From the NCBI GenBank assembly GCA_944324485.1, contig CALUWM010000006.1, positions 1 through 64,000 on the forward strand: a stretch of 64,000 nt of DNA, given 5' to 3'. Source of the DNA: Candidatus Gastranaerophilales bacterium (lineage in GTDB: Bacteria; Cyanobacteriota; Vampirovibrionia; Gastranaerophilales; Gastranaerophilaceae). The notes beneath the pieces were generated by a model. It worked only from the letters and a program-made list of their open reading frames with translations, ran no database searches and had not been told where the DNA came from. The position numbers were made by a program, and so were the translations under genes. Below are positions 54 through 58,211 of this stretch, piece by piece (the stretch's first letter is position 1; every line of letters begins with the position of its first letter).

Positions 54-212
54 TATCACTTCAAAAGATGTTGTCAAATTAAATTTATGAAATGGCTCTA
101 TAATCTTTTTAGTGCAATGTCATTTGTGGTTTGATTTTGTCCACATATAATATAGTATTACATAAAAAATATTTTTCAACTTTGGTAAAATAATATTTAC
201 AAAAGTTTATAT

Positions 213-2644: not shown

Positions 2645-3945
2645 ATTATATGTGCTCCAGGTACATGTTCCGGTCTTTCCATTCTTTCTTTTAGTGCACC
2701 CGAAGGAGAATAATAAGGATCTACGGTCATAATTTTTGCTGCTATATCCGGATAAAAATAAATAAATCTAAGCTCGCTGTCTGTTAGAGGTTTTTGTGTA
2801 TGAACGTTTGCATATCGTGCAAGTTCAAGGATATTTCTTGCTTCATTTTCGTCATGGAATTCTAATTCAAGTCCTTGGAAAACATTTCTAAATCCTTTAA
2901 TGCCGCCATATTCTCCAACTGTTATCATTCGCCCTGTTTCTATTATTTCAGGTTCACCTCTGCCAAGCTCTTCGAAATCATATAGTTCGTAGTTTCTTCT
3001 GTTCTTTAGAGCTCCGTCTGCGTGAATTCCTGATTCATGGGCAAAAGCATTTGCACCAACTGCTACTTGATTTATGGGAATCGGTACACCAAATGCGTAG
3101 CTTGTATATTTTGCAAGTTTCCATGCTTTTGAAATATCTATTTGAGGATCGATTTTATATTTGTCTTTAAAACCGCTTGATTTCATTATTGCAAGTAAGC
3201 ATGATACTAAATCTGCATTGCCGGCTCTTTCTCCCATACCGTTTATTGCAGTATTAATCCATGCGTCAACTCCGGCATCAATTGCGGCACGTGCACCCAT
3301 CACAGAGCATGCGACAGCCATCCCGAGATCATTGTGAAAATGGAGTTCTATATCCATTTTAGTTTCTTTTGCAATTTCAAATATTCTTTCATATGCTTTT
3401 GTCGGATCGTCAAATCCTAAGGTATCACAATACCTAAATCTTGTAGCTCCGTATTTTTTACACTCTTTAGCATATTCAATTAGATAATCTAAATCTGATC
3501 TTGAAGCATCTTCTGCATTTACTCCAATTATTTTTGCATTTTGACTTATTGCTTCATTCAATGCCTCTAATGTGTCATTTAGAACATCTTTTGGTGTTTT
3601 TTTGCCTTGATATTTACCGTTTATCATTTGGTTTGATGTAGATTGGCTTAAATTTATATATTGAAGTTTAGGTACGTTTTTAAATGATTCTTTAACATCA
3701 TTTTTTATTGCTCTCATCCAACCGGAGAGTTTTGTTTTGTTTATAACACCTCTTTCAACAAGTTCGAGATTGCCGTTAAGATAATTTATCTCGTGCCTTG
3801 TTGTCGGAAAACCAAATTCAGATTGGTTTATTCCCATTTCGTTTAACATAAGATTTATTATTGTTTTTTCTAGTTTAGCAAGCCCTAATCTTGAAGTTTG
3901 GACACCATCTCTGTTTGTTACATCTACAAATTTAATATAGTTCAT
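2641..3945 (-). CDS. Homocitrate/2-isopropylmalate synthase family protein (DRE-TIM)
   Basis: This is an acetyl-CoA-dependent aldol-type synthase of the HMGL-like TIM-barrel family. The metal site is visible as HFHNDLGMA, with NGMGERAGNADL and HESGIHADG further on, as in homocitrate and isopropylmalate synthases. The usual N-terminal RDG.Q motif is present in the variant form VTNRDGVQTSR. There is no long LeuA regulatory domain: 434 residues is homocitrate-synthase size. The neighbours (miaB, serC) do not reveal the pathway, and no other alpha-aminoadipate, nif or leucine gene lies in the window. Homocitrate synthase is my first guess, but the substrate is unproven. A GAGGGA ribosome site precedes the ATG. 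Confidence 0.75.
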   Translation of the reverse strand: MNYIKFVDVTNRDGVQTSRLGLAKLEKTIINLMLNEMGINQSEFGFPTTRHEINYLNGNLELVERGVINKTKLSGWMRAIKNDVKESFKNVPKLQYINLSQSTSNQMINGKYQGKKTPKDVLNDTLEALNEAISQNAKIIGVNAEDASRSDLDYLIEYAKECKKYGATRFRYCDTLGFDDPTKAYERIFEIAKETKMDIELHFHNDLGMAVACSVMGARAAIDAGVDAWINTAINGMGERAGNADLVSCLLAIMKSSGFKDKYKIDPQIDISKAWKLAKYTSYAFGVPIPINQVAVGANAFAHESGIHADGALKNRRNYELYDFEELGRGEPEIIETGRMITVGEYGGIKGFRNVFQGLELEFHDENEARNILELARYANVHTQKPLTDSELRFIYFYPDIAAKIMTVDPYYSPSGALKERMERPEHVPGAHII

Positions 3946-22946: not shown

Positions 22947-23348
22947 ATGAGTGTAAGATTTAGTGACAGGATTATATCAATATTAGCTTATTTTACATTT
23001 GGAATTTTTAGTATAATTTGGATTGTCTTTGCAAATCTTACAAAGAAAACCATGAGCTCTTTTCTTGTGTTTAATTTGTATCAAGCGATTTTTATATCGG
23101 TAGTTTTGGCTGTTATTTCTCTTTTATATAGCATTTCGATAAATTTAATCAGTGTAATACCTCTTATTGGTAATTTTGCTGAATGGTTTGATGTATTTTT
23201 TAATCAAACGCCTTTGTATTTTACATTTACAATTTCTGGGCTATTGGTAACTATTTTGGTTATGTATTTATCTTTAATGTCTTTATTTGGAAAAAAACCT
23301 TATTTACCAATGGTTTCTGATGTAATATCTTCAAATTTTGGAGGATGA
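22947..23348 (+). CDS. Small polytopic membrane protein (Tic20/DUF4870-like)
   Basis: The 133-residue protein has four hydrophobic segments (about 10-30, 40-65, 70-82 and 90-112). The SSFLVFNLYQAIFISVV segment recalls the RFNxYQA region of Tic20/DUF4870-type proteins; that resemblance is weak and the call is tentative. An AAGGA ribosome site overlaps the end of the TPR gene. Its own 3' end provides the GGAGG site for the FliO-like gene, a sign of tight translational coupling. Confidence 0.6.
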   Translation: MSVRFSDRIISILAYFTFGIFSIIWIVFANLTKKTMSSFLVFNLYQAIFISVVLAVISLLYSISINLISVIPLIGNFAEWFDVFFNQTPLYFTFTISGLLVTILVMYLSLMSLFGKKPYLPMVSDVISSNFGG

Positions 23349-23349
23349 T

Positions 23350-23760
23350 TTGAAAAAAAATATATTTTTTCTTTTAAACTTTTTTTCTTATGCTTATTGT
23401 TTAGCAGATGAGTTGAATTTAGAAGATGAAGAAATCAAAAATGCTTTAAGTCAGAATGTATATGAACCAAATTATTTCAGCTTATTTTTAGGTTTGTTTT
23501 TGGTCGTTGGTTTAATATATTTAACCGGTTTTTTATATCAAAAATTGTCAAAAGTTAGGATTAATACTGAAAATGATTTTATAAATAAGCCGCAAGTTTT
23601 AGCTACAACATCATTAGGGCAAGGAAAAAACATTCATGTAATTAAGATTAATGATGATTATATTTTAGTTGGAGCAACTCAAAACAATATCTCTTTTTTA
23701 AAGGATTTAGATAAAAATTATATTATAGAACAGCTGAGGAAAGTTGATGAAAACAGTTAA
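23350..23760 (+). CDS. FliO-like flagellar export/assembly membrane protein
   Basis: FliO helps assemble FliP, the core of the flagellar export gate. This 136-residue protein has a signal-like hydrophobic N-terminus, an acidic stretch, one strong membrane segment (YFSLFLGLFLVVGLIYLTGF) and a cytoplasmic domain whose LGQGKNIHVIKINDDYILVG follows the FliO pattern of a conserved GxGxxIxVIxVxDxYxLxG. A TTG start is chosen because GGAGG lies five bases upstream; an in-frame TTG 12 bases earlier has no such site. No fliP, fliQ or fliR is next to it, so the assignment to flagella is uncertain. Confidence 0.62.
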   Translation: MKKNIFFLLNFFSYAYCLADELNLEDEEIKNALSQNVYEPNYFSLFLGLFLVVGLIYLTGFLYQKLSKVRINTENDFINKPQVLATTSLGQGKNIHVIKINDDYILVGATQNNISFLKDLDKNYIIEQLRKVDENS

Positions 23761-24610
23761 AATTGGAAATAAGAAAGTAGGATTTGGCGAGCCGGTTTTT
23801 ATAATTGCCGAAATTGGAATAAACCATAACGGTTCATTAAATACTGCTAAAAAATTAATAAATATAGCTCATCTTTTTGGCTGTGATGCTGTTAAGTTTC
23901 AAAAAAGGACAATTGAAAAGGTATACAGTAAAGAAGAACTTTTAATGCCTCGCCAAAGTGTTTTTGGTGAAACCAACGGAGATTTAAAACGTGGATTGGA
24001 ATTTGGGTATGAGGAATATAAAGAAATCGATAAGTATTGTAAAGAACTTGGAATATATTGGTTTGCATCGGTATGGGATGAAGATAGCGTAGATTTTTTA
24101 GAAAAATTTAATGTATGCGCTCATAAAATTCCGTCTGCGTGTATAACGGATATTAATCTTTTAAAGCATGTTAAAAAGACAAACAAGCCTATTTTTTTAT
24201 CAACAGGCATGTCAACTATGGATGAAATAGATAATGCTGTAAAAATACTTGGAGAGGATAATATCGTGCTGTTTCATTGTACATCGACTTATCCGACACA
24301 AAATAATGAAATAAATTTAAAAGTAATTCAGACTTTTAAAGATAGATTCAGTTGTCCTATCGGATATTCCGGACATGAAAAAGGAATTGTTCCTTCTACT
24401 ATTGCAGCTGTTATGGGTGCATGTGCGGTAGAAAGACATATTACGCTTGATAGAACCATGTGGGGTTCAGATCAGGCAGCAAGTCTTGAACCTGAAGGAT
24501 TAAGGAAATTAGTCCGAGATATTAGAAATGTTAAGGATTTTATGGGCGATGGTATAAAAAGAGTTTATGATTCCGAATTGCCGATAAAAAAGAAATTGAG
24601 GAGAGTTTAA
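23747..24610 (+). CDS. neuB: Nonulosonate (sialic acid-type) synthase NeuB
   Basis: NeuB-family enzymes condense phosphoenolpyruvate with an amino sugar to form sialic, legionaminic or pseudaminic acids for surface glycans. The barrel motifs are clear: AEIGINHNGS, CDAVKFQKR, HKIPSACITD, STGMSTMDEI, HCTSTYPT, GYSGHEKG and ERHITLDRTMWGSDQAASLEP. At 287 residues it lacks the C-terminal SAF (antifreeze-like) domain found in most NeuB/SpsE proteins, which usually closes the active site. The start overlaps the FliO-like gene by 14 bases with AGGA upstream. A KdsC-like phosphatase follows directly. Confidence 0.88.
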   Translation: MKTVKIGNKKVGFGEPVFIIAEIGINHNGSLNTAKKLINIAHLFGCDAVKFQKRTIEKVYSKEELLMPRQSVFGETNGDLKRGLEFGYEEYKEIDKYCKELGIYWFASVWDEDSVDFLEKFNVCAHKIPSACITDINLLKHVKKTNKPIFLSTGMSTMDEIDNAVKILGEDNIVLFHCTSTYPTQNNEINLKVIQTFKDRFSCPIGYSGHEKGIVPSTIAAVMGACAVERHITLDRTMWGSDQAASLEPEGLRKLVRDIRNVKDFMGDGIKRVYDSELPIKKKLRRV

Positions 24611-31056: not shown

Positions 31057-32385
31057 CTAGGTTTTATTCTTGAATTTTGACAAGAAGTACTCTTCACCTT
31101 TTTCTGTAATTGTATATTTTATTATATCATCAATATTTATAGTATTTATGTATTTTTCTCTAATTAAGGCTTCAGTTATTGACATATCGGCGATTTTTCC
31201 GGTTGCAGGAAAAATTTTAGAATTGATGAATTTCATAGAAAAACTTTGTTCGTGCAGTATATTTTTAATGTAATATGCACAAATTAAGAATGTATCAAAA
31301 AGTTCATTTACCCCGAAGCTTGAAAGAAAAAGCGAGAAATCTATTGTTGGACCTTGATATTCAGTTTGTAAATTTGTTTGTTGAATTTGGTTTGTTTCTT
31401 CTTCTTTGTTTATATTCTCCTCAGGGTTTAAATTGAATTGATTTTCATTAGAAAAATCAATTTCAACTTCATTTAATACTAATTCTTGTTCGCTCTTTAT
31501 TTCTTCTTTTGTTATGCTTTCATTATTATTTTGAATTATTTCATTGTTTTTGATTTCCGGCGGTGTTTGATTTTGCGAAATTATCTTAATTTCATTATTT
31601 TGAATTGGATTATTTTCTTCCAGTGCATTATTTAAAGCTGTTATAGTTATTTCTTGTCTGGTTGGCGTGTTTTCTTTTTCATCAGACAAGAAAATATTAT
31701 CAATTTTTACTTGATTGTTATCATGGTATATTTCTTTTTCGTTTTCTATTTTTATAGGCTGTGCTTTAACTTCTTCTTTAATATCAAATTTTATTATATT
31801 GTCTTCTTCTTTATCGTTTTCATTTTGGCTTGATATTTTTAAGTCATTATTTATTGATAAATCTAATGATTCAATTTCGTTTTGCGCCAGTTCGATTATT
31901 TCTTCTATATTGCTTTTAGTAGAATTTGCTTCTGCAATGTTTTTATTTTCAAGTTTAGTTGGCTCAATTACTTCAGGAGTTTTTGTTTCAGGTTCAATTT
32001 GTTTTATTTCAGGTTTAACTTGTTCAACTGTTTCAGGGGTTTTAGCGACTAATTCAGGTTGAAGCGTAGTTGGCTCAATTACTTCAGGAGTTTTTGTTTC
32101 AGGTTCAATTTGTTTAATTATTTCAAGATTTTTAGCAGAACTTGGCTTGTCTTCTGTAATTTTATTTTCAAAATTTTGAGATTTATTTGCGAGTTCTTCT
32201 ATTTCTTCAATAGATTTTAAATTTTCATTTACGATTTTTACTTTTTTAATTTTAGAAACAAATTCTTCACTTGCGTTAAAAATATACGCAAAATAAATAT
32301 CCATCTCTCTTTGCGTAACAAGTTTATCGTTGGATTCAAGTATAAATTCGCTTTTCTGCGATTTTATTTTGATATTGTAGTACAT
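31057..32385 (-). CDS. Acidic, low-complexity repeat protein, 442 residues
   Basis: No family is recognised. Residues 1-60 form a small folded-looking domain (YYNIKIKSQKSEFILES then a helix) that resembles the 42-residue product of the gene just upstream. Residues 70-340 are acidic and disordered, rich in E, N, I and P, with the phrase KQIEPETKTPEVIEPT repeated. The C-terminal 95 residues (from GPTIDFSLFLSS) look globular and helical and could be a winged-helix-like module. There is no signal peptide or membrane segment. The AGGAAAA ribosome site precedes the ATG. Confidence 0.68.
   Translation of the reverse strand: MYYNIKIKSQKSEFILESNDKLVTQREMDIYFAYIFNASEEFVSKIKKVKIVNENLKSIEEIEELANKSQNFENKITEDKPSSAKNLEIIKQIEPETKTPEVIEPTTLQPELVAKTPETVEQVKPEIKQIEPETKTPEVIEPTKLENKNIAEANSTKSNIEEIIELAQNEIESLDLSINNDLKISSQNENDKEEDNIIKFDIKEEVKAQPIKIENEKEIYHDNNQVKIDNIFLSDEKENTPTRQEITITALNNALEENNPIQNNEIKIISQNQTPPEIKNNEIIQNNNESITKEEIKSEQELVLNEVEIDFSNENQFNLNPEENINKEEETNQIQQTNLQTEYQGPTIDFSLFLSSFGVNELFDTFLICAYYIKNILHEQSFSMKFINSKIFPATGKIADMSITEALIREKYINTINIDDIIKYTITEKGEEYFLSKFKNKT
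31956..32115 (-). repeat. Pair of perfect 49-bp direct repeats in coding sequence
   Basis: 31956-32004 and 32067-32115 are identical. The 111-bp spacing is a multiple of three, so recombination between copies would delete or add 37 residues without a frameshift. They encode the repeated PETKTPEVIEPT phrase. Confidence 0.92.
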
Positions 32386-39463: not shown

Positions 39464-40390
39464 TTATTCCCAATTCATATTTAAAGTATCTTTGTTGCAG
39501 GATAATTCAAAGTTATCAATTGTATCGTCAAATCGACCTGGTCCCATTGTGCTTATTGCTGCCGGATATTCTTTTATAATTGGTCCAAATACATATTTTC
39601 CATTTGAGTATATAACGGGTCTTATTGTAATTTTACAAGGACCATATACTTTATACTCTAAACAATCCCAATAATATGCATTGTTTGTTTTTCTTTTGAT
39701 TGTTAAGCTTGCATCGACATAGTCTACTATACCGGGTCTATATTTTTTACAATTTCCGCTTGATGTTTTAAAGTACCCTTTTTGGCAGCCATCCATGTAA
39801 CCTTCAAATTGCTCAAGTCCAGGTTGGGCGCTGGAGTTTGTAGATGCGAATGGACAATTTGTTCCAATGCCACATTCAAAGCAAGAAGACGCACCTATGT
39901 TTGACCATTTGCCACTACTGCAACTTTTGCAAGAAGTAGCACCTATTGTATCTTGATAGTATCCTGCTGGACAGTCTTTGCATGCCGCTTGTCCTTTTAG
40001 GTTTTGATATTGTCCTTTGGGACATGCAATACATTTTGTTTGTTTTGTTTGACTTTGATATTGACCTTCCGGACAAATGGTGTAGTTTATTGCTGCTTCA
40101 TTGTCTGAATATGTACCAATTGGAGAGTCTTTGCAGAATGTTTTACCGGATTCGTCCTGATATTGACCTTCTGGGCATGGTTTACAGTCTTTAATTCCAT
40201 CAAAATAATTACCCTTGTTGCATACTTTAAATTTAGTACCAGGAGACACTGTGTTTTTTTCTGTAATTTTTCTAAAAACAACAGGACTAAATGCTGCAAA
40301 AAGGCAACTTATTGTAATTAAGCTTATCATTAGTTCAATTAACGAAAATGCTTTGAATGTTCTGTAAATTTCTTTTTTTATTTTTTGCAT
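39464..40390 (-). CDS. Prepilin-like protein with eukaryote-type cysteine repeats
   Basis: Residues 12-41 are a type IV prepilin N-terminus (KAFSLIELMISL with Glu at +5; the residue before the cleavage is Ala, not Gly) and a membrane helix. Residues 70-173 hold six units of 17 residues with the plan C-P-x-G-x-Y-Q and a second Cys 14 residues later: C72/C86, C106/C120, C123/C137, C140/C154, C157/C170. The unit at 89-105 has lost both (S89, Y103). This resembles GCC2/GCC3 (ephrin-receptor-like) repeats. A C-terminal domain of about 130 residues with four or more Cys is unknown. The start at 40390 has an AAGGTG site; a longer frame to 40435 does not. A surface pseudopilin or adhesin is likely. 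Confidence 0.75.
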   Translation of the reverse strand: MQKIKKEIYRTFKAFSLIELMISLITISCLFAAFSPVVFRKITEKNTVSPGTKFKVCNKGNYFDGIKDCKPCPEGQYQDESGKTFCKDSPIGTYSDNEAAINYTICPEGQYQSQTKQTKCIACPKGQYQNLKGQAACKDCPAGYYQDTIGATSCKSCSSGKWSNIGASSCFECGIGTNCPFASTNSSAQPGLEQFEGYMDGCQKGYFKTSSGNCKKYRPGIVDYVDASLTIKRKTNNAYYWDCLEYKVYGPCKITIRPVIYSNGKYVFGPIIKEYPAAISTMGPGRFDDTIDNFELSCNKDTLNMNWE

Positions 40391-40549
40391 AACAAATACA
40401 CCTTTTATAAGGTAGTTTAAATACAATTTAGCCACAAGTATAATTTTGTAGTATAGTTAAGTGTGTAATTGTTGTATTGAATTGATAATATTATTATATA
40501 CATAAATTACAATACTTGTCAATATATATAAATACAATAAAGGTAATTT
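40391..40549. promoter_or_regulatory. Divergent control region between prepilin-like gene and XRE regulator
   Basis: The region is very AT-rich and holds repeated short motifs: ACAAGTAT (40434-40441) against ATACTTGT (40512-40519), TTGTATTG (40472-40479), and TACAAT at 40422, 40508 and 40533. TATACT on the minus strand (40442 down to 40437) is a good -10 for the prepilin-like gene. The arrangement of inverted half-sites between a regulator and a target suggests operators, but no known consensus was matched. Confidence 0.45.
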
Positions 40550-40852
40550 ATGTCTACACAAGGAAAAAGACTGAAAAATATTAGAAATCGCTTAAATCTT
40601 ACTCAAGAGCAGTTAGGTTTAGCTTTAGGTATTTCAAAGCAATTTTATTCTAATATTGAAACAGATAGAACTTTATTGAATAACGAAAAATTAGTATTGT
40701 TATTTAAAGACTATAATGTAAATTTAAATTATTTATTGGGCGGAATTTTACCAATGTTTAATAACGAAAAAGGTTTAGTAGTGGATGATTTTGAGCTAAG
40801 AGTGAAGAATATCTTAATTCGGGAAGGCTTGATAAAAAATAAAGACCTTTAA
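40550..40852 (+). CDS. XRE-family helix-turn-helix regulator
   Basis: A 100-residue Cro/CI-type DNA-binding protein. The five-helix domain covers residues 5-62 with the helix-turn-helix in LTQEQLGLALGISKQFYSNIETDR. The last 30 residues are a helical tail, perhaps for dimerisation. There is no peptidase or ligand domain. It has an AAGG ribosome site and is transcribed divergently from the prepilin-like gene, which it may control together with itself. No other phage-like gene lies nearby, so it does not mark a prophage. Confidence 0.85.
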   Translation: MSTQGKRLKNIRNRLNLTQEQLGLALGISKQFYSNIETDRTLLNNEKLVLLFKDYNVNLNYLLGGILPMFNNEKGLVVDDFELRVKNILIREGLIKNKDL

Positions 40853-46903: not shown

Positions 46904-49900
46904 TTATTCTTCGTCATCATCATTTTTTTCGTCATCATCTTGACCGAGATCTACTTTTGCGGCTGCAGACATGATATTTGATGTTTGATCAACTGTATTA
47001 TCTGATACTTTTGAAGTTTTTGAAATTTCAACTTGTTCTCTAGGTAATTTAATTTGGTTAATCATAGAATCTATATCTGTGTCTTCAGGATCTACCGGTG
47101 GTGGTTCAGGACAATCAGCTTCTCTTGGTTTGTCGTATACCAATATAAAGTCTTCATCTGTGTCACCAAAGTTGATTGTATGTTTTTCGTATACATCTAT
47201 AACGCCATCAGGTGTATTTACTGTACCTTCAACATAGCTTCCGGTGTAATCAAAATCGGTAGGATCCTTAGTGAAATCGTTGTCTTGATTGAATCCCATA
47301 TAGTCTCTGACTTCAATATAACCTTTTGATGGTGTTCCTTCAGGTAATCCTGCTATTTGTTCAGGTGTTAAGTTAGTTTCTGAAGCATACATCTTGTCGT
47401 TTCCGTCAGTAAATAATTTATCTGTTATTATTTTAGATACTGCAAGTTCGTTATCAACAGCGTTTACATGTACTTCAGGACCTTCGTATTGTTCGCTTTT
47501 TTCATCCCATTTTTGATTTCCTGATAAATAGTATCCTGGTCTGAAGTTGCCACCTGTTGGATCTTTATCAAGTTTATCTACGTTTTGTGCAATTAATTCT
47601 ACACCGGCATCTTTGTTGTTTGCATTTTTTAAGTCAACTACTATGCTGCCGTTTGTTGGATCATTTGCATCTTTAACAGTTTCAGTTGTGATTTTTAATT
47701 TTGTTTTGTTTACATCAAGAACTGTTTTTCCTGTACCAGATCTATCAGTTGATACACTTTGTGGGAATTTGTGAGTTTTAGCTGCAACGTCTTCTGCTGC
47801 TGTTCCGGTTACGTCATCAGTTGTAACATCGCCATTTGCATAAATTTCAGTAACTGTATCTTTAGCATTAGCTGTTGCTTGTTTTATTGTTAAATCATTC
47901 ATTATTACGTCATGTCCTGATTCGATAAAGTTTTCAGGAGCTTCAAATGATGAATTTACAAATTGTATATCGCCTTTAGTATAGAATCTGTTTGCGCCAC
48001 CAGCAATATAGTCAACATTTACTGATTTTAGTGAGTCTTCACTTGTGAAAGTGTTATTACCTTTTGCATTAAATGTTAATCTATCACCATATTCAAGTAC
48101 TGGCATTGTTGTTTTTTCTGCATTAATATCTCCGCCTGTTGAAGTAATGTACATATCTTCTCCAGAGGCGATTTTTGATGTGTTGTCTATATTAACGTTT
48201 GATTCTCCTTGTTTTCCGAAATTGATAGTTTCGTATGCTTGAAGAGTTACGTCTTTCTTTGCGTTAATGGTTGTATTATCTTTAACAAACATTCCGCCTT
48301 TTGTAGCTTCAGCTTTAAGGTTTCCGTCTGCTTTTAGTGTTGAATTATCAATTTTAACATCACCTTTTTTAGATAAAAGATTCATATCATTGTTTACATG
48401 TACATTAGTGCTGTTTGTTGCAATGACATCACCTTCAGTTGATGTTACATTTAGATTATTTGCATCTGCTGTATTTATTGTAAGTTTATAGTTGATAGCA
48501 TCTGCTGTTCCATCATCAACTAATGAATCGTCTTCATTTCTATCAAATTTCAGTGAATAAGCTGCTCTTTTCATCGTAGCATTATCAAGAGTGAAGTTAC
48601 CGTTTGTTTCTAGGGTAATATCTCCACCAACTTTACCATCAGATGTTAACGGGCTAAATGTTGAGTTGTTTGCAACTGTAACATTGTTAAGACCGGTAGT
48701 TCCATCGTTGTAGAATTTGATTTCATCATATACTAGTGATGAGTTATCAATTAAAGTGTTTGAACCTTGTATTGATAATTTATCTCCTGCTGCAATTAGT
48801 GTTTGATTGTTTCCGTTTTCGTCTAAATCGCTCGATATAATTATGTTTCCTGCAAGTGAGCCATCGGAATATGCAGACAATATGTCAACATCACCTGCTG
48901 CATTTGCTATTGAATTGTGAATTTTTACTTCGCCTGCTCCTGCAAGGGTTATATTGGTTATATCGTTTTTATCAACAGTATTTGTTGATTGTATAAGGGA
49001 ATTATTAACTTCTACCTTATCAACTGATTGTACATAAGCATCGCCATTAGCAATAACTTTTGTGCCGTCCAATTTAGCTTTTCCACCATAGGAGAATATT
49101 CTAACTGCACCTGCGTTGCTTCCTTCAGGTTGATTTTTCGAACCAGCAGTGTAAATTAATGAATCTTTGACTGTAACATCTTTTCCTGCTGTTATGAATA
49201 CTTCACCGCCGTTTTGTCCTTCTGTATTAATAACTGTTCCATTTTTATCAGTTACATTTGTGTTAACTGTTTCTAGGCGTGAATTATCAACTAAAACATC
49301 TTGTGAACCAACTATCATAATGTCTCCATTTTCTTTGTTCACAAGTTTCGTACCTTTTATTACAGAATTTGAAATTTTTATATCTGATCCTGCTGCATTT
49401 GATTTATTGATAATATGAACATCACCTGATCTTATTGCAGTTTGATCAGGAGCAAGACCTGAGTTGTCTATTTCAATTGTTCTTTGTACGTCATTTTCGG
49501 TATCTTCTGCTACTTTAAGGGTATCTAGATATCCGTTTGCTAAATAATCAAATGTTACACCATCTGCTGTAATTAATCTTACATTTGAGAAAGATTGAGA
49601 GCCGTTTGATGTAATATAGTTGTGGTTGTTTCCTGTTCTAATTATTGAATCTTTATATTTTATGTTATCTGATATAATTGCGACAGATTTATTTGGATTT
49701 GCTTCGTTAAATGTTCCATCTTCGTTAAAGTGAGCAAATGTTGTTCCGTCTAAACTTACAAAAGTGTCTCCCTTTTTAAATACTATGCCGGCATCTTCAT
49801 ATGCTTTTGTATAGTTTGAATCAAAAGTGATTGAACCATAAACTCTGTTTTCACCATTTACTTCCGGAGTTGGAGATAGTTTATTAAGAACACCGGATTG

Positions 49901-50404
49901 ATAAGCTGCCATTTGTGCTTCAGTCATACCTTTTAAGTTTTGAGCACCTCTAAAGTCAAATGTTGAAACAGTGAAAGAATTTAAGTCAACTGTTGAACCT
50001 GCTCCAAACATTACACCTGCTGGGTTAATTAAAATAACTTTTCCTGTTGCTGCAAATGAATCACAAGCACCGCCGTTAATACAGGAATTTGTTATGCTAC
50101 CCATAATGTCAGATGGTCTGCCGCCTAAGACACGGTTTATAATTGTTTGAGAAAGACCGGAAAATCCAAAGTTAACTTGTTCTCCTCTGCCAACTGAAAA
50201 ATCATTCCAGTCAACCTGTCCAACGGCACCATGTTGACCGCCTATGATATTAACATCAAGTCTGTTATCAGATGTGCCAAAGCCAATGTTATTCGTATTA
50301 TTAATAACATCATTTACCGATGCTGCAAAAGCAGTTGCGCCTGTTATTGATAAAAAGGCAAGCATTGCGGTAAACGCTGTAATTTTCTTTTTAAACTGAC
50401 TCAT
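46904..50404 (-). CDS. TpsA-type secreted exoprotein (filamentous hemagglutinin-like)
   Basis: A large secreted beta-helix protein of 1166 residues exported through the divergently encoded TpsB. Signal peptide 1-28 (cut after AFA) is followed by the TPS domain (about 29-180): NNIGFGTSDNRLDVNIIGG, NRVLGGRPSDIMGSI, a Cys pair in CINGGACDSF, and ILINPAGVMFGAGSTVDLNSF, the form of the NPNGI signature. Residues 200-1000 are irregular beta-helix repeats rich in N, D, T and V (GDVDILSA, GDITLETNGNFTLDN). A proline/acid tail with one Cys (CPEPPPVDPEDTD) ends in an Asp/Glu cluster. It may be an adhesin or a surface matrix protein. No toxin domain is visible. Confidence 0.85.
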   Translation of the reverse strand: MSQFKKKITAFTAMLAFLSITGATAFAASVNDVINNTNNIGFGTSDNRLDVNIIGGQHGAVGQVDWNDFSVGRGEQVNFGFSGLSQTIINRVLGGRPSDIMGSITNSCINGGACDSFAATGKVILINPAGVMFGAGSTVDLNSFTVSTFDFRGAQNLKGMTEAQMAAYQSGVLNKLSPTPEVNGENRVYGSITFDSNYTKAYEDAGIVFKKGDTFVSLDGTTFAHFNEDGTFNEANPNKSVAIISDNIKYKDSIIRTGNNHNYITSNGSQSFSNVRLITADGVTFDYLANGYLDTLKVAEDTENDVQRTIEIDNSGLAPDQTAIRSGDVHIINKSNAAGSDIKISNSVIKGTKLVNKENGDIMIVGSQDVLVDNSRLETVNTNVTDKNGTVINTEGQNGGEVFITAGKDVTVKDSLIYTAGSKNQPEGSNAGAVRIFSYGGKAKLDGTKVIANGDAYVQSVDKVEVNNSLIQSTNTVDKNDITNITLAGAGEVKIHNSIANAAGDVDILSAYSDGSLAGNIIISSDLDENGNNQTLIAAGDKLSIQGSNTLIDNSSLVYDEIKFYNDGTTGLNNVTVANNSTFSPLTSDGKVGGDITLETNGNFTLDNATMKRAAYSLKFDRNEDDSLVDDGTADAINYKLTINTADANNLNVTSTEGDVIATNSTNVHVNNDMNLLSKKGDVKIDNSTLKADGNLKAEATKGGMFVKDNTTINAKKDVTLQAYETINFGKQGESNVNIDNTSKIASGEDMYITSTGGDINAEKTTMPVLEYGDRLTFNAKGNNTFTSEDSLKSVNVDYIAGGANRFYTKGDIQFVNSSFEAPENFIESGHDVIMNDLTIKQATANAKDTVTEIYANGDVTTDDVTGTAAEDVAAKTHKFPQSVSTDRSGTGKTVLDVNKTKLKITTETVKDANDPTNGSIVVDLKNANNKDAGVELIAQNVDKLDKDPTGGNFRPGYYLSGNQKWDEKSEQYEGPEVHVNAVDNELAVSKIITDKLFTDGNDKMYASETNLTPEQIAGLPEGTPSKGYIEVRDYMGFNQDNDFTKDPTDFDYTGSYVEGTVNTPDGVIDVYEKHTINFGDTDEDFILVYDKPREADCPEPPPVDPEDTDIDSMINQIKLPREQVEISKTSKVSDNTVDQTSNIMSAAAKVDLGQDDDEKNDDDEE

Positions 50405-50780: not shown

Positions 50781-52559
50781 GTGCATATGTATTTAAATCG
50801 CGGTTTAAAAGCTAAATTGCTTGTATTGTTTACTATTTTTACACTTTCCCCATTATGTGTATTAGCAGGACCTGAGGCAGGTTCGAATTTAATTCCAAAT
50901 GGGATTGGAAATTTTGATGCTGGTGTTATTGACCAGACGAATTTGCGTCAGATAAAAGATTATGAACAGAAAATTAGAAATGACCGAGAAGAAGAACATT
51001 ACGAAGAAAAAATCGAAATGAATAAAGAAATGAGAGATAAAATGCAAGATCTCCCAAATAAAGAGGTCAGTTTTACTCTTAATTCTATTCATATAACAGG
51101 AAATACTGAATATACCGAAGAACAGTTAATGAATCTTGTGTGCCAAAAAATTGGTGATGTTGTTACAATTAACGATCTAATCGGTATGGCTAATGCAATA
51201 ACAGAGTATTATCAAAAGAATGGATATATTTCCACAACTGCTTATTTACCACCTCAAAAAGTAGAAGATGGTAATGTAGAAATAGTTGTTTTAGAAGGTA
51301 AGTACGGTAATATTACCATTGAAGGTAATAAATGGGCTAGAAAAAAATATTTAAGTGCTACTTTCTTGAAAGATAAAAATATTCAGGAAGATAAAGTGCT
51401 AAATGTAGCTGATATTCAAGAATCTTTGCGTGAATTGAATGCGACAGATTATATAAAAGGTGCCGTTGCACTTCAAGATAATGAAGATTCAGAACAATAT
51501 ACAGATTTAACATTGAATGTAAAAGACAGATTTCCTATTGATTTCGATTTTCGTTTTGATAACCAAGGTCGTTCTTCTGTCGGTTTGAATCGTTTCGTAA
51601 TATTTGCAGGAATGAGTAACTTAACAGGATTTGGTGATCAAATCTTATCTACAACTTCTCTTGCAAGAAGTTCAATAGGACAAGGTGTATTTTATTCTGT
51701 GCCAATAGGAAGACATGAAACAAAATTAAATTTAGGTTATTCTTATTCAGGTACAAAATTGGATAAAGGCATATTAAAGGATTTAGATGTTCAAGGTAAG
51801 TCCCATAGTTTCTATGTTGATTTATCCAGAAGACTTGTAAAAACTGAAAATTACAAACTATATGGTGATATTGCCTTTGATATGAGAAATACAAATACCA
51901 CTTTAAAAGGCTATGACTTGTATGGTTATAGAACAAGAGCAATTAAATTAAACTTAACTAATGTTAAAGACGATTTTTATGGTAAGTGGTTTGGTAATAT
52001 TGGTGTAGCTAAAGGTATTGATGTATTTGGTGCTTCTAATGATGCTTTTGGTGTGTACACCAGAGAAACCCCTACTAATAAAATGGTAAAATTACAGGCT
52101 TCAATTGCAAGATTGCAAGTGCTACCATGGAGAATGATGGGTATATTTACCGCTAATGGTCAATGGGTAAATAGAAATGTTTGGTATTCTGATAAAATGC
52201 AAATTGGTGGTATTTCTTCTGTAAGAGGTTTTGAAGAAGGCTATTTCCTTAGGGACTATGGTGTAACAGCTTCTGCAGAGTTAAGAGCGCCTGTGCCATT
52301 CTTAAATCATTTACCGGACAAATTAAGATTTATTGATGACTCAATCAGACTTGCTGCGTTCTGTGATATGGGTTGGTTTGGTGATTATGGGTATGGAATG
52401 CCAAGCTCAAGTTTTGTAATGAGTGTTGGCGGCGGATTGGTATTAAAAATGACAAGATATTTATCCGGTAATGTATATTTTGGTGTTCCAATAGTAAATC
52501 GTCCTGATGACGCATCAAGCTTTAGAGTTCACTTTATGATTACTTCGAATATATTATAG
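50781..52559 (+). CDS. TpsB-type outer-membrane transporter (ShlB/FhaC family)
   Basis: The Omp85-like pore that secretes the TpsA protein. A signal peptide (about residues 1-31, cut near VLAGPE) precedes a charged helical linker. The POTRA region (about 90-250) has the segments SFTLNSIHITGNTEYTEEQL and YYQKNGYISTTAYLPPQ. The beta-barrel follows, with the L6 motif VRGFEEG and the late AAFCDMGWFG strand, and an aromatic-poor end (MITSNIL). Length (592) is typical. GTG is chosen because AAGGAA lies ten bases upstream; an ATG six bases later is possible. Divergent from tpsA. Confidence 0.9.
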   Translation: MHMYLNRGLKAKLLVLFTIFTLSPLCVLAGPEAGSNLIPNGIGNFDAGVIDQTNLRQIKDYEQKIRNDREEEHYEEKIEMNKEMRDKMQDLPNKEVSFTLNSIHITGNTEYTEEQLMNLVCQKIGDVVTINDLIGMANAITEYYQKNGYISTTAYLPPQKVEDGNVEIVVLEGKYGNITIEGNKWARKKYLSATFLKDKNIQEDKVLNVADIQESLRELNATDYIKGAVALQDNEDSEQYTDLTLNVKDRFPIDFDFRFDNQGRSSVGLNRFVIFAGMSNLTGFGDQILSTTSLARSSIGQGVFYSVPIGRHETKLNLGYSYSGTKLDKGILKDLDVQGKSHSFYVDLSRRLVKTENYKLYGDIAFDMRNTNTTLKGYDLYGYRTRAIKLNLTNVKDDFYGKWFGNIGVAKGIDVFGASNDAFGVYTRETPTNKMVKLQASIARLQVLPWRMMGIFTANGQWVNRNVWYSDKMQIGGISSVRGFEEGYFLRDYGVTASAELRAPVPFLNHLPDKLRFIDDSIRLAAFCDMGWFGDYGYGMPSSSFVMSVGGGLVLKMTRYLSGNVYFGVPIVNRPDDASSFRVHFMITSNIL

Positions 52560-52776: not shown

Positions 52777-53988
52777 TTATTGTTGATATGCTTGGAATAA
52801 TGGCAAGTACAATGCTAAACCTAAAAATCCAACTAATACACCGATAAATACCATTAGCAATGGTTCAATTAATTTTGTAAAAGCATCAATAACTGCGTCT
52901 AGTTTTTTATCGATAAAACTTACGCAGTGATACAAAGAGTCTCCAAGACGTCCTGACTGCTCGCCTGTTGCAATCATGAATGTCATCATTGTGGGTACTT
53001 CATTTACGCTTTTAAGTGCAACTGAAAGGTGCGTACCTTGTTGAACTTTTGAGGCTACTTGCATGATTGCTGTTTTTAATACAAAATTGTCCATTGTGAG
53101 ATTTGCTAAAAATAAACAATCTACAATTGGTATACCAGCTTCATATGATACCTGTAAAACTGCAATGAAGTTTGAAAAATTTGAAAATTTCATTAATTCA
53201 GACATCATTGGAATATGAAGTACGAATTTATCAATTGCTTTTCTAATCGTTGGATTTTGGTATGCTTGATTAATTCCAATAATCCCGCATACAATTCCCA
53301 GTAAGAATAAAAACCAATATTTTTTCATAAATACGCCCATATTCATACAGGCTTTGGTTATCCAAGGTAGGGGTTTACCTAAATTATTAAACATTTCGTC
53401 AAATGCAGGGAATACGAATACAAGCATTATAATAACAGCTACTATTGCTAATAATACAACAATTGCCGGATAGATAAGCGCTCCTATAACTTTTCCTTTT
53501 ACTGCGTCCTGTTTTTTTAGAAGCTCCAACATACGCATCAAGGTTTTATCGAGCTCTCCTGAATCTTCTCCTGCTTTAACCAAACCAATATAAACCCTTC
53601 CAAAGATATTTCTATATCTTTCAAGAGTTTCGCCTAATGTTGATCCGCCTATAATTTGTTTTCTAAATTCATGTGTAATTTTCCTTATTCTTTGAGAATC
53701 GGAATTTTGTTCTATAAATAACAGGGCTTCAATAATTGGTATACCTGTTGATGTTAATATTTCTAAAGTAGAAGTAAAATCGATTTTTTCTTTTAGGCTA
53801 AGCGCACTAACTCTTGCTACTTTCCCTTTTGTTTTTTTTCTTTCTGCTGTTTCTGCATCGGCAAATGATGTTGGAATAAGGTCCATTTGGCGAACCTTTT
53901 TTCTGGCTTCACTAATATCGGCCGCTTCTACACGTCCTGATACAACAGTTTTATTATTTTTTATTGCTGTGTATAGAAAAACTGCCAT
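52777..53988 (-). CDS. Type II secretion/type IV pilus inner-membrane protein GspF/PilC
   Basis: The polytopic platform protein that turns ATPase motion into (pseudo)pilus assembly. Two T2SSF domains (about 65-190 and 265-395) are visible: FTSTLEILTSTGIPIIEALLFI with LVKAGEDSGELDKTL, and FIAVLQVSYEAGIPIVDCL with MIATGEQSGRLGDSL. Three membrane segments are present. The ATG overlaps the stop of the ATPase gene (TAATG), which places the start there; the longer frame to 54066 would lie inside the ATPase gene. Last gene of the C-D-E-F-type operon. Confidence 0.93.
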   Translation of the reverse strand: MAVFLYTAIKNNKTVVSGRVEAADISEARKKVRQMDLIPTSFADAETAERKKTKGKVARVSALSLKEKIDFTSTLEILTSTGIPIIEALLFIEQNSDSQRIRKITHEFRKQIIGGSTLGETLERYRNIFGRVYIGLVKAGEDSGELDKTLMRMLELLKKQDAVKGKVIGALIYPAIVVLLAIVAVIIMLVFVFPAFDEMFNNLGKPLPWITKACMNMGVFMKKYWFLFLLGIVCGIIGINQAYQNPTIRKAIDKFVLHIPMMSELMKFSNFSNFIAVLQVSYEAGIPIVDCLFLANLTMDNFVLKTAIMQVASKVQQGTHLSVALKSVNEVPTMMTFMIATGEQSGRLGDSLYHCVSFIDKKLDAVIDAFTKLIEPLLMVFIGVLVGFLGLALYLPLFQAYQQ

Positions 53989-56306
53989 TATTGTTCGCCC
54001 GCCAATCCTAAAATTCTTACTTGTTCTTCTATTGATGTACTTCCTTCTAAGATATGTCTTAAGCAAGACATTTTTAGAGTTTTCATACCTTGTTTTATTG
54101 CATAATCTTCAATTTCGACATCATGTGCTCTTTGTGCAATCATTTTTCTTATTTCGTTATTTATAACCAAGATTTCCAGAACAGCCAAACGTCCTAAGTA
54201 TCCTGAGTTTTTGCAATTTGGACATCCGTGTGGCTTGTATATTTTAGTTTGTGTTAATTTTTGAATTTCAATAGGATCTGTTAAAATTTGTTTTGCTTCT
54301 TCATAACTTGGGTAGTATTCTTCTTTGCAATTTGGGCACAATTTTTTAACAAGACGTTGAGCTATAATTCCTGAAATTGTTGATGATATCAAGTAATCTT
54401 TTGCCCCCATTTCAATAAGTCTTGTAATTGTTGCTGCTGCTGAGTTAGTGTGGACTGTTGATAATACCAAGTGCCCTGTAAGTGAAGCTGATATTGCAAC
54501 TTCTAGTGTTTCATAGTCACGAATCTCCCCGATTAATATTGTATCAGGGTCTTGTCTTAGAATTGCACGTAAGGAATTTGCAAATGTGATACCGGCTTTG
54601 GTGTTTATTGAGGATTGGTTAATACCCTCAAGTTTTATTTCAACCGGATCTTCAATTGTTGTTATGTTAACAGAATCTGAGTTCATATACCTTAAAAGTG
54701 CGTATAATGTTGTAGTTTTACCTGAACCTGTCGGACCGGAGGTTAGAACTATTCCATTTGGTGAAGATACTAAATATCTTATTTTCTTAATATCATCTTC
54801 AGATGCTCCAACGATTTCAATTTTATCAGCTTTTGCTTCTTTGGAGTCCATTTGAGGTGCAAGAACACGGATTACCATTTTCTCTTTACCTGCAACGGGA
54901 AGAGTGTTTACACGGAAATCTTGTGCTTTATTTTTATACTTAAGGGTAAAAGAACCGTCTTGAGCACGTCTGTGTTCTGCGATATTCATTCTTGATAGAA
55001 CTTTAAATCTTGAAATAATTGCACTGTCAACTTTTGCAGGAATTTTAAGCGCTTCTTGCAGAGAGCCATCTACCCTTAAGCGTACCCTATATCCGACAGT
55101 CAGAGGTTCTATATGAATATCTGAAGCACGTCTGTCTATTGCCATTGTAATAATTTTATTTGCAAGTTGCGAGACAGCACTATCTGAATCTTGTATTTCT
55201 TGCTCTACTTGTTCCCATAATCCTGATGAATTAGATTCGATTTTATCATCGTCATTTATTTGTTGTAATAATTCATCTGCGTCTGATTTATCAACATTGT
55301 AATAAGTGTTAATAAAGTTTTCAAACTCCACATGTGTAACAAGCATTACTGTTGGTTTTAAACCAGTTTGATATACAATTTCATTTATAACTTTAGTGTC
55401 ATTAGGGTTAACCATACCGACTACAAGAGACTTTTCTGTCATACTTAAAGGTATAACCTTATTAATTTTGACAAAATCTTCAGGTAGAATTGATATTGCT
55501 GTTGGAAGCGCTTTTAATTGTTCGGCTGTTGCATATTTAAGACCCATTTGAGCCCCTAGAGCTTCTTTTAGGTCTTTTATTGTAACAAATCCCATTTTAA
55601 CAAGCACAGAACCAAGAGGTATTCCTTGAGCTTTACTTTCAGCAAGAGCAATTTCAAGTTGTTCTTTTGTTATAAGCTCTTCTTCAAGCAGGATTTCTCC
55701 TAGTTTTTTTGTTTGCGGAGCTTTAACTTTTGATATGTCTGCTTTTGCTATTCCGTCACCATCGTCAGCAATTTGCTGTTTTTTAGGAGAGGTTTTTATT
55801 TCAGTTTCTTCAAAAATTTCAGAATCGTCACTGTCATCACTATTATCTAAATATAGGTCTGCATCTTTAGATTCTGACTCATCTAATTCATCATTTTCAT
55901 CGATTATAAGCTCGTCATCATTTTCATCGATTATAAGCTCGTCATCATTTTCATCGATATTGTTAAAATCTTCAGAATCAAATTCAAAAGAGTCATCTTC
56001 ATCTTGTCGGACTGGATTTTTAATTGCAATGCCATATTTTGCAGAGAATTTTTTTAAAAAGGCATCAAAAAGTCGTTCGAAATTGTCTTTGGTTAAATAG
56101 ATGAACTCAATTTTGTTGTCAAATATTTTACTAACATATTCCGTTATCTTTTCCTTATTCGAGTTTGAATATACCGCAATAAAGAAAACATTATTTTGCA
56201 TATTAACGGGGACGAAAGATAATTCTTCCGCCACCGATAATTCAAACTTATCTGCTAAATCAAAATTTATTTTACCTATTAATTTTGTTATTATACTATT
56301 GTCCAT
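53988..56306 (-). CDS. Type II secretion/type IV pilus assembly ATPase GspE/PilB
   Basis: The 772-residue assembly ATPase. Residues 1-100 are a lineage-specific head, then an acidic disordered stretch (110-180) with tandem NDDELIIDE repeats. A MshEN/T2SSE-N domain follows at 200-340 (LGEILLEEELITKEQL, LPEDFVKINKVIPLS), in some relatives a c-di-GMP sensor. The catalytic core has Walker A GPTGSGKTTT, the Asp box ITTIEDPVEI, Walker B ILIGEIRDYET and the His box STVHTNSAAA. The zinc motif CPNCKEEY...CPNCKNSGYLGR is complete. It sits 12 bases after the secretin gene. Confidence 0.94.
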   Translation of the reverse strand: MDNSIITKLIGKINFDLADKFELSVAEELSFVPVNMQNNVFFIAVYSNSNKEKITEYVSKIFDNKIEFIYLTKDNFERLFDAFLKKFSAKYGIAIKNPVRQDEDDSFEFDSEDFNNIDENDDELIIDENDDELIIDENDELDESESKDADLYLDNSDDSDDSEIFEETEIKTSPKKQQIADDGDGIAKADISKVKAPQTKKLGEILLEEELITKEQLEIALAESKAQGIPLGSVLVKMGFVTIKDLKEALGAQMGLKYATAEQLKALPTAISILPEDFVKINKVIPLSMTEKSLVVGMVNPNDTKVINEIVYQTGLKPTVMLVTHVEFENFINTYYNVDKSDADELLQQINDDDKIESNSSGLWEQVEQEIQDSDSAVSQLANKIITMAIDRRASDIHIEPLTVGYRVRLRVDGSLQEALKIPAKVDSAIISRFKVLSRMNIAEHRRAQDGSFTLKYKNKAQDFRVNTLPVAGKEKMVIRVLAPQMDSKEAKADKIEIVGASEDDIKKIRYLVSSPNGIVLTSGPTGSGKTTTLYALLRYMNSDSVNITTIEDPVEIKLEGINQSSINTKAGITFANSLRAILRQDPDTILIGEIRDYETLEVAISASLTGHLVLSTVHTNSAAATITRLIEMGAKDYLISSTISGIIAQRLVKKLCPNCKEEYYPSYEEAKQILTDPIEIQKLTQTKIYKPHGCPNCKNSGYLGRLAVLEILVINNEIRKMIAQRAHDVEIEDYAIKQGMKTLKMSCLRHILEGSTSIEEQVRILGLAGEQ
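55898..55951 (-). repeat. Two perfect 27-bp tandem repeats in the ATPase gene
   Basis: Two identical 27-bp units stand head to tail and a partial third follows. They encode nine residues each (ELIIDENDD) in the acidic linker. Slippage would change linker length in frame. Confidence 0.9.
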
Positions 56307-56318
56307 TTGTATTTTTTT

Positions 56319-58211
56319 CTATAAGTCATATATTTTGTCATCTGAGAAATCTTGTCCGTCTTTTACGATATGCGGAGTAACAACAATTACAAGCTCTTCT
56401 CTTGATTTAGTGGTTGCATTGCCTCTAAAGAATGCTCCTATGAATGGAAGATCAGACAGTATCGGCATTTTTTGAACAGTTTGGGTTTCATTTTCTTTAA
56501 TTAACCCTGCCAAAACAAGCGTTTCCCCGTCTTTTATTCTTATGTTTTTTAATTCTAAATCACGTCTTTGTAAAAGCGTTGCAGCAAGTTCTTGCTGTCC
56601 AAGTTCATTTGTTGTGTAGACTTGGCTTTTAATTGTTGCGAATTCCGGCGAAATGTTCATAGAAACATATCCATCAGGTGATATAAATGGTACTATTTCA
56701 ATTAATAAACCTTCGTCAGAACCAATGTCGTATGTTCTTTGAGTAGCACTTGTTACAGTGTCTGAACCTTGTAGAATTTGACTTGTAACTGATTTTACAT
56801 AGTCTGAAGTCATATCTATGGTAGCTTTTTTACCATTTGTTACCATAATTTTTGGATTTGTAAGAACTCTACCGTTGCCGTTTTCAACCAAATATTTTAA
56901 TTGGTAAGTAAGAGCAGAATTGTTTGATTTTGTAACTTGAGTTATTGTTTCTGTTGAAGTTACGTTTCCATCAGCATCAGTACTTTCAGTTACTACTCTT
57001 GTTGGATAATGATCACCCCATATGAAAAATGGCGAAAGTGAATTTGTAGTTAGACCATCTGAAGGACTAAACCCTAGCGAAATAAAGGGTGTCCATAATT
57101 GCCAAGTGTTAGAAAATTCTTTTGAACCTGTTTCATTAAGTTCAATTACTGAAAGTTCAACATATGCCATTAGTTGTTTTTTGTCGTGTTCTTTTATGAA
57201 TTCTTTAATAACTTCTATTTGTTCAACCGATCCGCCAAAAGCCGATATTTTTCCTAATTCTGGAAAATATGTTATGGTTAGTGGGTTAGCTTTAAATGCA
57301 GACAAACCTTCGCTGCCGGATCCTGCTTCTGTTGATTCATCTCTACAAGCAACTGTTCCGCCGCCTAAGACAACATCTTCAGAGTCCGTTGAGCTTGAAG
57401 AACCTTCAGAGCCGCTTGAGTTTTTGTTGTAAAATAATGAATCACAAATCAATGTAGCCATTTCTTTTGGTGTTGTATGATTAACTTTAAAATTGTTTAC
57501 CATCGGTTTGGTGTCAAGTACCGGTAAAACTCTTTTGACTGCTGTTACATCTGCATTGCTTCCAAAAACTACAATTTGATTTGTTCTTGGGTTTGATGTA
57601 ACTATTGGTTGATTTGAAAGTCCAAATATTCTTGATTTAAATAAATTGGCATTTAAAAACTCTGCAACACTCTCAGCATTTACATATTTAACAGGCAAAA
57701 CAGTCATACTTTTTCTTGTGTATGCCAATTCGTTTGCTGCATCAAGTGTCATCACGGTTATCGTATTTCCATCCATTGTATAAGTCAGTTGTGATGATTT
57801 AAAAATAACCATGAAAGCGTCGTTTATGTTGATATTGTTTAAGTCAAGAGTGATTTTTCCCTCTACTGATTTATCAAAAATTATGTTTAACTTTGCTTTA
57901 TCTGCAAGCATTCTTAAAGCTTGTTTTAAATCAGAATCCCTTAAGGATAGATTAATTTTTGAATTTGATTTTGTAATAACGGGAGTATTATCAAGTTTTA
58001 AGGTGGTTTCTATACCTCTTGCATCAACTGAATTTATATTCAGTATACTGTTGCTGTCTCCTGATTGACTATTGTATAGATACCCACTTGAAACGCTATC
58101 AAGATATGAAACTTTGTTATTATCATATCCAAACGCAGTTTGTACCATTAACGTTAAACTTAAAATGGTTAAACAGGCTTTAGTTATGTTGCTTGCTTTA
58201 AATTTTTGCAT
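56319..58211 (-). CDS. Secretin GspD/PilQ
   Basis: The outer-membrane gate of a type II secretion or type IV pilus system. A signal peptide (about 1-28) leads to an unusual Ser/Asn-rich linker and an STN/N0-type domain (SLRDSDLKQALRMLADKAKLNIIF, residues 88-155). Secretin N-domains follow (LPVKYVNAESVAEFLN, FKVNHTTPKEMATLI), with a Ser/Gly-rich insert near residues 265-285. The secretin core has GNGRVLTNPKIMVTNGKKA and GETLVLAGLIKENETQ, ending in EELVIVVTPHIV. Length (630) is normal. A GGGAG ribosome site precedes the ATG. It lies between the GspC-like and ATPase genes. Confidence 0.93.
   Translation of the reverse strand: MQKFKASNITKACLTILSLTLMVQTAFGYDNNKVSYLDSVSSGYLYNSQSGDSNSILNINSVDARGIETTLKLDNTPVITKSNSKINLSLRDSDLKQALRMLADKAKLNIIFDKSVEGKITLDLNNININDAFMVIFKSSQLTYTMDGNTITVMTLDAANELAYTRKSMTVLPVKYVNAESVAEFLNANLFKSRIFGLSNQPIVTSNPRTNQIVVFGSNADVTAVKRVLPVLDTKPMVNNFKVNHTTPKEMATLICDSLFYNKNSSGSEGSSSSTDSEDVVLGGGTVACRDESTEAGSGSEGLSAFKANPLTITYFPELGKISAFGGSVEQIEVIKEFIKEHDKKQLMAYVELSVIELNETGSKEFSNTWQLWTPFISLGFSPSDGLTTNSLSPFFIWGDHYPTRVVTESTDADGNVTSTETITQVTKSNNSALTYQLKYLVENGNGRVLTNPKIMVTNGKKATIDMTSDYVKSVTSQILQGSDTVTSATQRTYDIGSDEGLLIEIVPFISPDGYVSMNISPEFATIKSQVYTTNELGQQELAATLLQRRDLELKNIRIKDGETLVLAGLIKENETQTVQKMPILSDLPFIGAFFRGNATTKSREELVIVVTPHIVKDGQDFSDDKIYDL

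Follow-up and report, generated by a model that had tools for sequence, protein, structure and literature searches.

A prepilin-like protein with a cysteine-repeat stalk in Candidatus Gastranaerophilales as a putative modular type IV pilin

What kind of protein is encoded by a single open reading frame that joins a prepilin segment to a GCC2/GCC3 cysteine-repeat rod, a kind of rod mostly known from animals and algae? The question arises in the Gastranaerophilales, non-photosynthetic relatives of cyanobacteria. Minor pilins can set what a type IV pilus sticks to, and how gut bacteria vary this choice is poorly known. The gene, whose product is called P0001 below, lies in a window of 64,000 nucleotides, which is the whole stretch of DNA analysed (contig CALUWM010000006.1 of assembly GCA_944324485.1, genome G000 in the comparisons). 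The features of the gene and its product are the following.

39464-40390, minus strand: gene for P0001, a modular prepilin-like protein of 308 amino acids plus stop; the start codon is ATG, with AAAAGGTG, which resembles a ribosome-binding site, 5' of it.
40349-40390, minus strand: leader peptide, residues 1-14, MQKIKKEIYRTFKA, probably cleaved before F15; A or G occupies position -1 in all 41 distinct N-termini from the retrieved loci.
40262-40348, minus strand: prepilin hydrophobic helix, residues 15-43, with E19 at +5 and P36 at +22 (AF2 helix, comparison of N-termini, N_methyl profile).
39872-40222, minus strand: Cys-repeat stalk, residues 57-173, with units of 15, 17, 17 (Cys-less), 17, 17, 17 and 16 residues followed by C173 (PF07699, AF2, Foldseek match to Mst1).
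40076-40126, minus strand: degenerate unit, residues 89-105, with both Cys replaced (S89, Y103), by Cys count; similar units occur in sibling loci L031, L034 and L036.
39467-39871, minus strand: C-terminal head, residues 174-308, an orphan (homologue search in 27 sibling genomes, AF2).

A polar leader of 14 residues is thus followed by a hydrophobic helix starting FSLIE, the Cys repeats and a C-terminal part of 135 residues, and this fusion of prepilin segment, PF07699 stalk and head in one intact reading frame is the layout of a modular pilin. P0001 is likely to be a minor modular type IV pilin, probably displayed at the filament tip, with an adhesive head on a disulfide-braced rod. Within this explanation we infer cleavage, oxidation, assembly at the filament tip, head display, adhesion and the choice of head by regulation. 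The leader would be removed by prepilin peptidase, and one disulfide per repeat would be closed by VKOR-linked oxidation. The PilB/PilC/secretin machine would then insert the protein, most likely at the tip, since a subunit of this bulk would be hard to accommodate in the shaft. The rod would keep the head at a distance of a few nanometres, and there the head may bind a ligand on the host, on food or on another microbe.

The class III signal of P0001 is complete. The leader is followed by FSLIELMISLITISCLFAAFSP, with A at -1, a hydrophobic residue at +1, E+5, a hydrophobic helix and P+22. In prepilins, the A/F junction is the site of cleavage, E+5 serves subunit docking and P+22 allows the helix to melt on polymerisation. 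The retrieved loci supplied 41 distinct prepilin-like N-termini; all have F+1 and E+5, as the search pattern demanded, and 40 have P+22, which was not demanded. A preliminary description of this DNA had recognised the prepilin cleavage and helix motif, and the motif is indeed present, with conserved N-termini across the family and siblings that pass the N_methyl profile (PF07963; 22.3 bits in L087, 29.8 bits in L088), whereas P0001 itself, at 18.9 bits, stays under the curated cut-off of 21.2. The AF2 model places a helix at residues 2-33, and the stalk begins soon after it. No small pilin beta-module was seen between helix and stalk by HMM or AF2, the model being of low confidence (35-53) just after the helix.

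The link to a type IV pilus suggested in the same description is supported by an assembly cluster at 52777-58211, in the same window as P0001:

52777-54066, minus strand: PilC/GspF-type platform protein (T2SSF, 149.7 bits).
53988-56306, minus strand: PilB-type assembly ATPase (MshEN and T2SSE, 417.9 bits).
56319-58211, minus strand: secretin of the PilQ/GspD type (129.5 bits).

The genome also encodes a prepilin peptidase and a VKOR-type disulfide enzyme, and two further T2SSE-family matches of PilT-like size lie on contigs C24 and C35. These assembly genes could also serve a type II-like system, and a surface protein might borrow the prepilin segment as an anchor or export signal without ever polymerising, to stay in the inner membrane or be released by such a system. 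That no pilin globular domain can be recognised where the helix passes into the stalk would agree with this explanation, but the residues needed for filament assembly are kept throughout the family (E+5 in 41/41, P+22 in 40/41) and the PilT-like ATPase matches favour a retractile pilus, which makes a never-polymerised protein unlikely.

The surroundings of the gene and its head bear on a second alternative. Upstream of P0001 the following elements were found:

40493-40522, minus strand: consensus sigma-70 promoter of P0001, TTGACA - 18 bp - TATAAT; the promoter and its surrounding bases also occur in sibling genomes G002, G020 and G023.
40550-40852, plus strand: divergent XRE-type HTH regulator of 100 amino acids adjoining P0001 (HTH_3, 46.7 bits); its homologues adjoin many paralogues.

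The stretch with P0001 between gmk and rpoD is an insertion present in some genomes and absent from others. Little or nothing separates these two genes in most sibling species; the pair of HTH and prepilin genes is present there in G000 and G002 and evidently also in G020 and G023, whose contigs break off within the prepilin gene, and in G003 and G008 the HTH gene is followed by the contig end. The promoter region is common to G000, G002, G020 and G023 (sigma-70 match 12/12), and the HTH regulator of this locus shows about 80% identity. The coding sequence behind the conserved promoter differs strongly in stalk and head, P0001 and its G002 counterpart sharing 36% over the best stretch. Divergent XRE-type HTH genes adjoin many other family members as well. 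Upstream of the member on contig C44 (L124, about 110-250, minus strand), two TTACCAAwATGTG copies surround a TTGACT-16-TATAAT promoter and form a candidate operator for the XRE regulator of that member.

The head itself has no credible homologue of residues 171-308 in the 27 sibling genomes (best other match E 0.08) and no PHROG was found for the protein, so no ligand is proposed; AF2 gives the head a pLDDT of about 24-35 and no confident fold. A head private to P0001 is what might be expected of a decayed or silent member, left after recombination among paralogues with a shortened stalk and a non-functional head. Most paralogues carry an N-terminal EGF/TNFR-like Cys block that P0001 lacks, and its 308 residues make it shorter than nearly all complete members (23 others have 416-739 amino acids, two have 216 and 227). 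Decay is nevertheless quite improbable: the reading frame is intact, still retains 20 Cys and is preceded by the ribosome-site-like sequence, and the full-consensus promoter and the regulator are kept across four species.

The stalk accounts for the eukaryote-like appearance of the protein. Cys residues in the repeat region lie at positions 57, 69, 72, 86, 106, 120, 123, 137, 140, 154, 157, 170 and 173. Exact 17-residue units with Cys positions 14 apart start at 72, 89, 106, 123 and 140 (n=5, consecutive); in the unit at 157 the second Cys comes one residue early, 13 apart, in a unit of 16 residues, and the leading unit, 57-71, has 15. The six units of exactly 17 residues first described are thus five exact units and two near-units, with the 17-residue periodicity and the 14-residue spacing upheld in the exact ones, and the Cys positions confirm the double loss (S89/Y103) reported for one of them. 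The proposed resemblance to GCC2/GCC3 repeats holds well, since the curated profile PF07699 ('Ephrin_rec_like') matches P0001 far above its cut-off (E 9.5e-19, 67.4 bits vs 23.1) in three stretches; judged by this profile match, the Cys-repeat pattern is not chance. AF2, run on a six-sequence alignment, predicts short regular strands and strand pairs with a 17-residue period throughout, the Cys-less unit included, at a pLDDT of 72-94 over most of the stalk.

The nearest solved relatives are eukaryotic, in line with the eukaryote-like scaffold proposed in the preliminary description, both by sequence (the Chlamydomonas mastigoneme protein Mst1, E 3e-26, and ELAPOR1) and by fold. A Foldseek search of the PDB with the P0001 model returned Mst1 (8wa2) first, with a best E of 3.5e-9, followed by ELAPOR1 and TNF receptors. 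Chain E of 8wa2 superposes at 2.1 A over 138 columns, and matches to 8wa2 and 8tx1 range from E 3.5e-9 to 5.8e-8, the long rods superposing piecewise only. The Cys-rich part of Mst1 is a single rod domain of 26 nm with 26 disulfides (PMC11015965); by analogy, the stalk of P0001 would be a few nanometres long. Mst1 (PDB 8tx1, 8wa2) resembles the stalk in repeat sequence and predicted fold and is likewise a long disulfide-braced rod, found in an extracellular filament. In contrast to P0001, it is a eukaryotic homopolymer with an ordinary signal peptide and Ig and polyproline parts, and it has neither a prepilin segment nor a head.

Three sibling species show the same loss of both Cys in a unit that appears homologous (TPIGNYSDSQASTSYTP, SPSGSYVNSQGATNYTP and SPVGTYVDLKKQSNYKN). 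All units without Cys1 also lack Cys15 (4/4, Fisher p 0.003, a value that overstates the evidence because the four units look homologous). At the level of sequence, this paired loss fits one bond per unit, and it probably goes back to a single inherited event shared by several species, not to separate losses. We considered and rejected a recent tandem expansion within P0001, as the units form no DNA-level tandem array, in contrast to a paralogue in L009 with a tandem array of 48-bp period and 4.7 copies. That the Cys repeats themselves engage an ephrin- or TNF-type host pathway, as their likeness to eukaryotic GCC2/GCC3 and TNFR-type repeats might suggest, is very improbable, for paralogues differ widely in repeat number yet keep distinct heads, which is how a spacer would behave, and Mst1, the closest relative with a solved structure, is a rod with a structural role.

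As a putative modular pilin, P0001 belongs to a large family. Of 27 genomes of the same genus searched with P0001, 26 gave matches, with at most 38 in any one genome; part of these matches reflect the general prepilin segment or the repeats only. One protein of sibling G023 (L043) has an identical counterpart in a MAG assigned to Candidatus Gastranaerophilales (L025), which places the window in that order. A search of 289 genomes from 89 genera of the class at E 1e-6 found PF07699 in no genus but this one. Weaker similar repeats occur outside it in G044 and G047, at the level of the order, and in L026-L029 of one rumen MAG, where the repeat proteins begin with an ordinary signal peptide and not with a prepilin segment. 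In the 26 complete members compared, the prepilin segment is constant, and stalk length and head differ. For the heads, by regular expression, 8 are lectin-like, 5 glycine-rich and 13 other, this last class including some lectin-like heads that the expression missed. DUF1566/Lcl_C lectin-like, glycine-rich and orphan heads are the exchangeable kinds in these modular pilins of Ca. Gastranaerophilales. Paralogues with differing repeat counts, for which a survey of related genomes had been proposed, are found among these members. With a shared prepilin anchor, exchangeable heads and often an XRE regulator of its own for each member, such a repertoire could allow a cell to vary the head that it shows.

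In the genome of the window, the family comprises P0001, two glycine-rich members (C3, C21), four N-termini truncated where a contig ends (C32, C38, C41, C44) and fragments of stalk or head at the start or end of a contig (C13, C47, C27), a count that is a minimum. The pairs C32/C38 and C41/C44 have near-identical coding starts (98% over 128 bp and 96% over 91 bp) behind different upstream DNA. Contig C1 carries a head-only lectin cassette without a prepilin start (86449-86676; L187), with a counterpart on C13 (L180). These two copies are identical over ~350 bp, diverge abruptly with indels through the variable end and match again over the final ~30 bp, a sequence pattern that suggests head-cassette exchange by recombination, and the C1 copy looks like a silent donor cassette. 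A repeat of 910 bp, 92.5% identical, lies at two contig ends of the same genome (L126 7740-8648 on C42 and L129 1-909 on C46) and breaks the assembly. Sibling genome G009 has an unusually large lectin repertoire, with 59 matches to the head type targeted by diversity-generating retroelements (DGRs) in 1.8 Mb.

In sibling species, the lectin heads of the same family are additionally randomised by a retroelement. RVT_1 matches occur in 12 of the 28 genus genomes and not in G000, and P0001 has no lectin head, so that it is not itself a DGR target. G004 holds a complete DGR (L088 1017-5005), composed of a prepilin-lectin target, a template repeat, a reverse transcriptase and a bAvd-like gene below the Pfam cut-off. 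Within the target gene (1017-2672), the variable repeat at 1916-2132 differs from the template repeat at 3240-3456 at 20 positions, 19 of them at template A. This DGR lies directly downstream of rpoD, the neighbourhood that P0001 occupies in the window. Template A likewise accounts for 24 of 25 mismatches in G016. G019 and G025 each have a template repeat with counterparts, as variable repeats, in several genes scattered over the genome; of about 60 template A, 17-31 are mismatched, vs 1-13 of the roughly 150 other bases. G025 also has a second template-like copy that provides an internal control: compared with the same targets, it differs at 28-39 of about 155 non-A positions. The dispersed loci are L092, L168, L175, L181 and L193 in G019 and L093, L170, L177, L183 and L190 in G025. 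Of nine genes with template-matched variable repeats examined from G019, G025 and G004, seven begin with the same prepilin segment, and the 5' ends of the other two lie outside the retrieved DNA. Sibling genes in L088, L170, L175, L177, L183 and other loci thus qualify as DGR targets, and the comparison of repeats provides strong evidence that the modular prepilin family, though not P0001, is targeted.

Two lines of evidence, PF07603 matches and the DGR signature, point to the putative C-type-lectin fold of the sibling heads. All 7 members compared match PF07603 (best E 2.3e-8), the scores examined being below the curated cut-off. AF2 run on the lectin-headed relative P0002 without an alignment gave a pLDDT of 37, and a profile of the sibling lectin heads found nothing in the PDB. 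The repeats at L087 2818-3030 and 4957-5169 were rejected as a template/variable pair and treated as two variable copies, because the mismatches fall on T in the coding sense and both copies look mutated. The DGRs in L089 and L095 appear to be of phage type with unrelated targets and were set aside from the family.

It is conceivable, and we put it forward tentatively, that the genus operates an antibody-like display system on type IV pili, in which the prepilin anchor is constant, the stalk is Cys-rich and disulfide-linked, and the head is diversified. One retroelement template would rewrite many dispersed prepilin lectin heads; in genomes that have lost the retroelement, such as that of the window, head cassettes would be exchanged through recombination, and P0001 would be a fixed, non-lectin member. 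Such a picture of surface variation in an uncultured gut lineage is testable. The findings link two separate fields, modular pilins and DGRs, through a eukaryote-like disulfide rod used as a spacer on prepilins, in a family that is hypermutated by a retroelement in close relatives. The rod also brings bacteria into the discussion of where the GCC2/GCC3 module originated.

Parts of this arrangement have precedents. Modular pilins carrying adhesive modules are established, and PilB and PilC of Streptococcus sanguinis, as described in the main text of the survey by Raynaud 2021 (PMC8179133), share with P0001 a prepilin N-terminus joined to an exchangeable, non-pilin functional module. S. sanguinis PilB keeps a small pilin module, whereas P0001 has no evident pilin beta-domain and a GCC2/GCC3 rod interposed; ephrin or GCC2 modules go unmentioned in that main text (PMC8179133). 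The genus of P0001 also differs in its large paralogous repertoire, in which many members have an adjoining regulator. According to earlier surveys, DUF1566 is the commonest domain among DGR targets, and putative pilin structures associated with it have been mentioned (PMC6642488). The DUF1566/Lcl_C C-type-lectin heads of DGR variable proteins, and their template-adenine-directed variation, recur in sibling family members, but not in P0001, whose head differs and whose genome is without an RVT_1 match. In Treponema denticola, one template serves several remote target genes (PMC4891356), as in G019 and G025, although many of the T. denticola targets are predicted lipoproteins and the sibling targets here are prepilin-type proteins. 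A literature search, conducted without most subscription papers, found none joining GCC2/GCC3 with pilins or DGRs with Melainabacteria.

Several other features were observed in the window. Beside the pilus cluster lies a two-partner secretion pair, a filamentous-haemagglutinin-like protein of 1166 amino acids with a TPS domain (46904-50404) and a ShlB/FhaC-type transporter (50781-52559). At 23338-24610, a FliO-like gene and then a NeuB-family gene are found between TPR-repeat genes. Finally, a 61-bp stretch occurs at 31948-32119 in two direct or inverted copies that are 93% identical.
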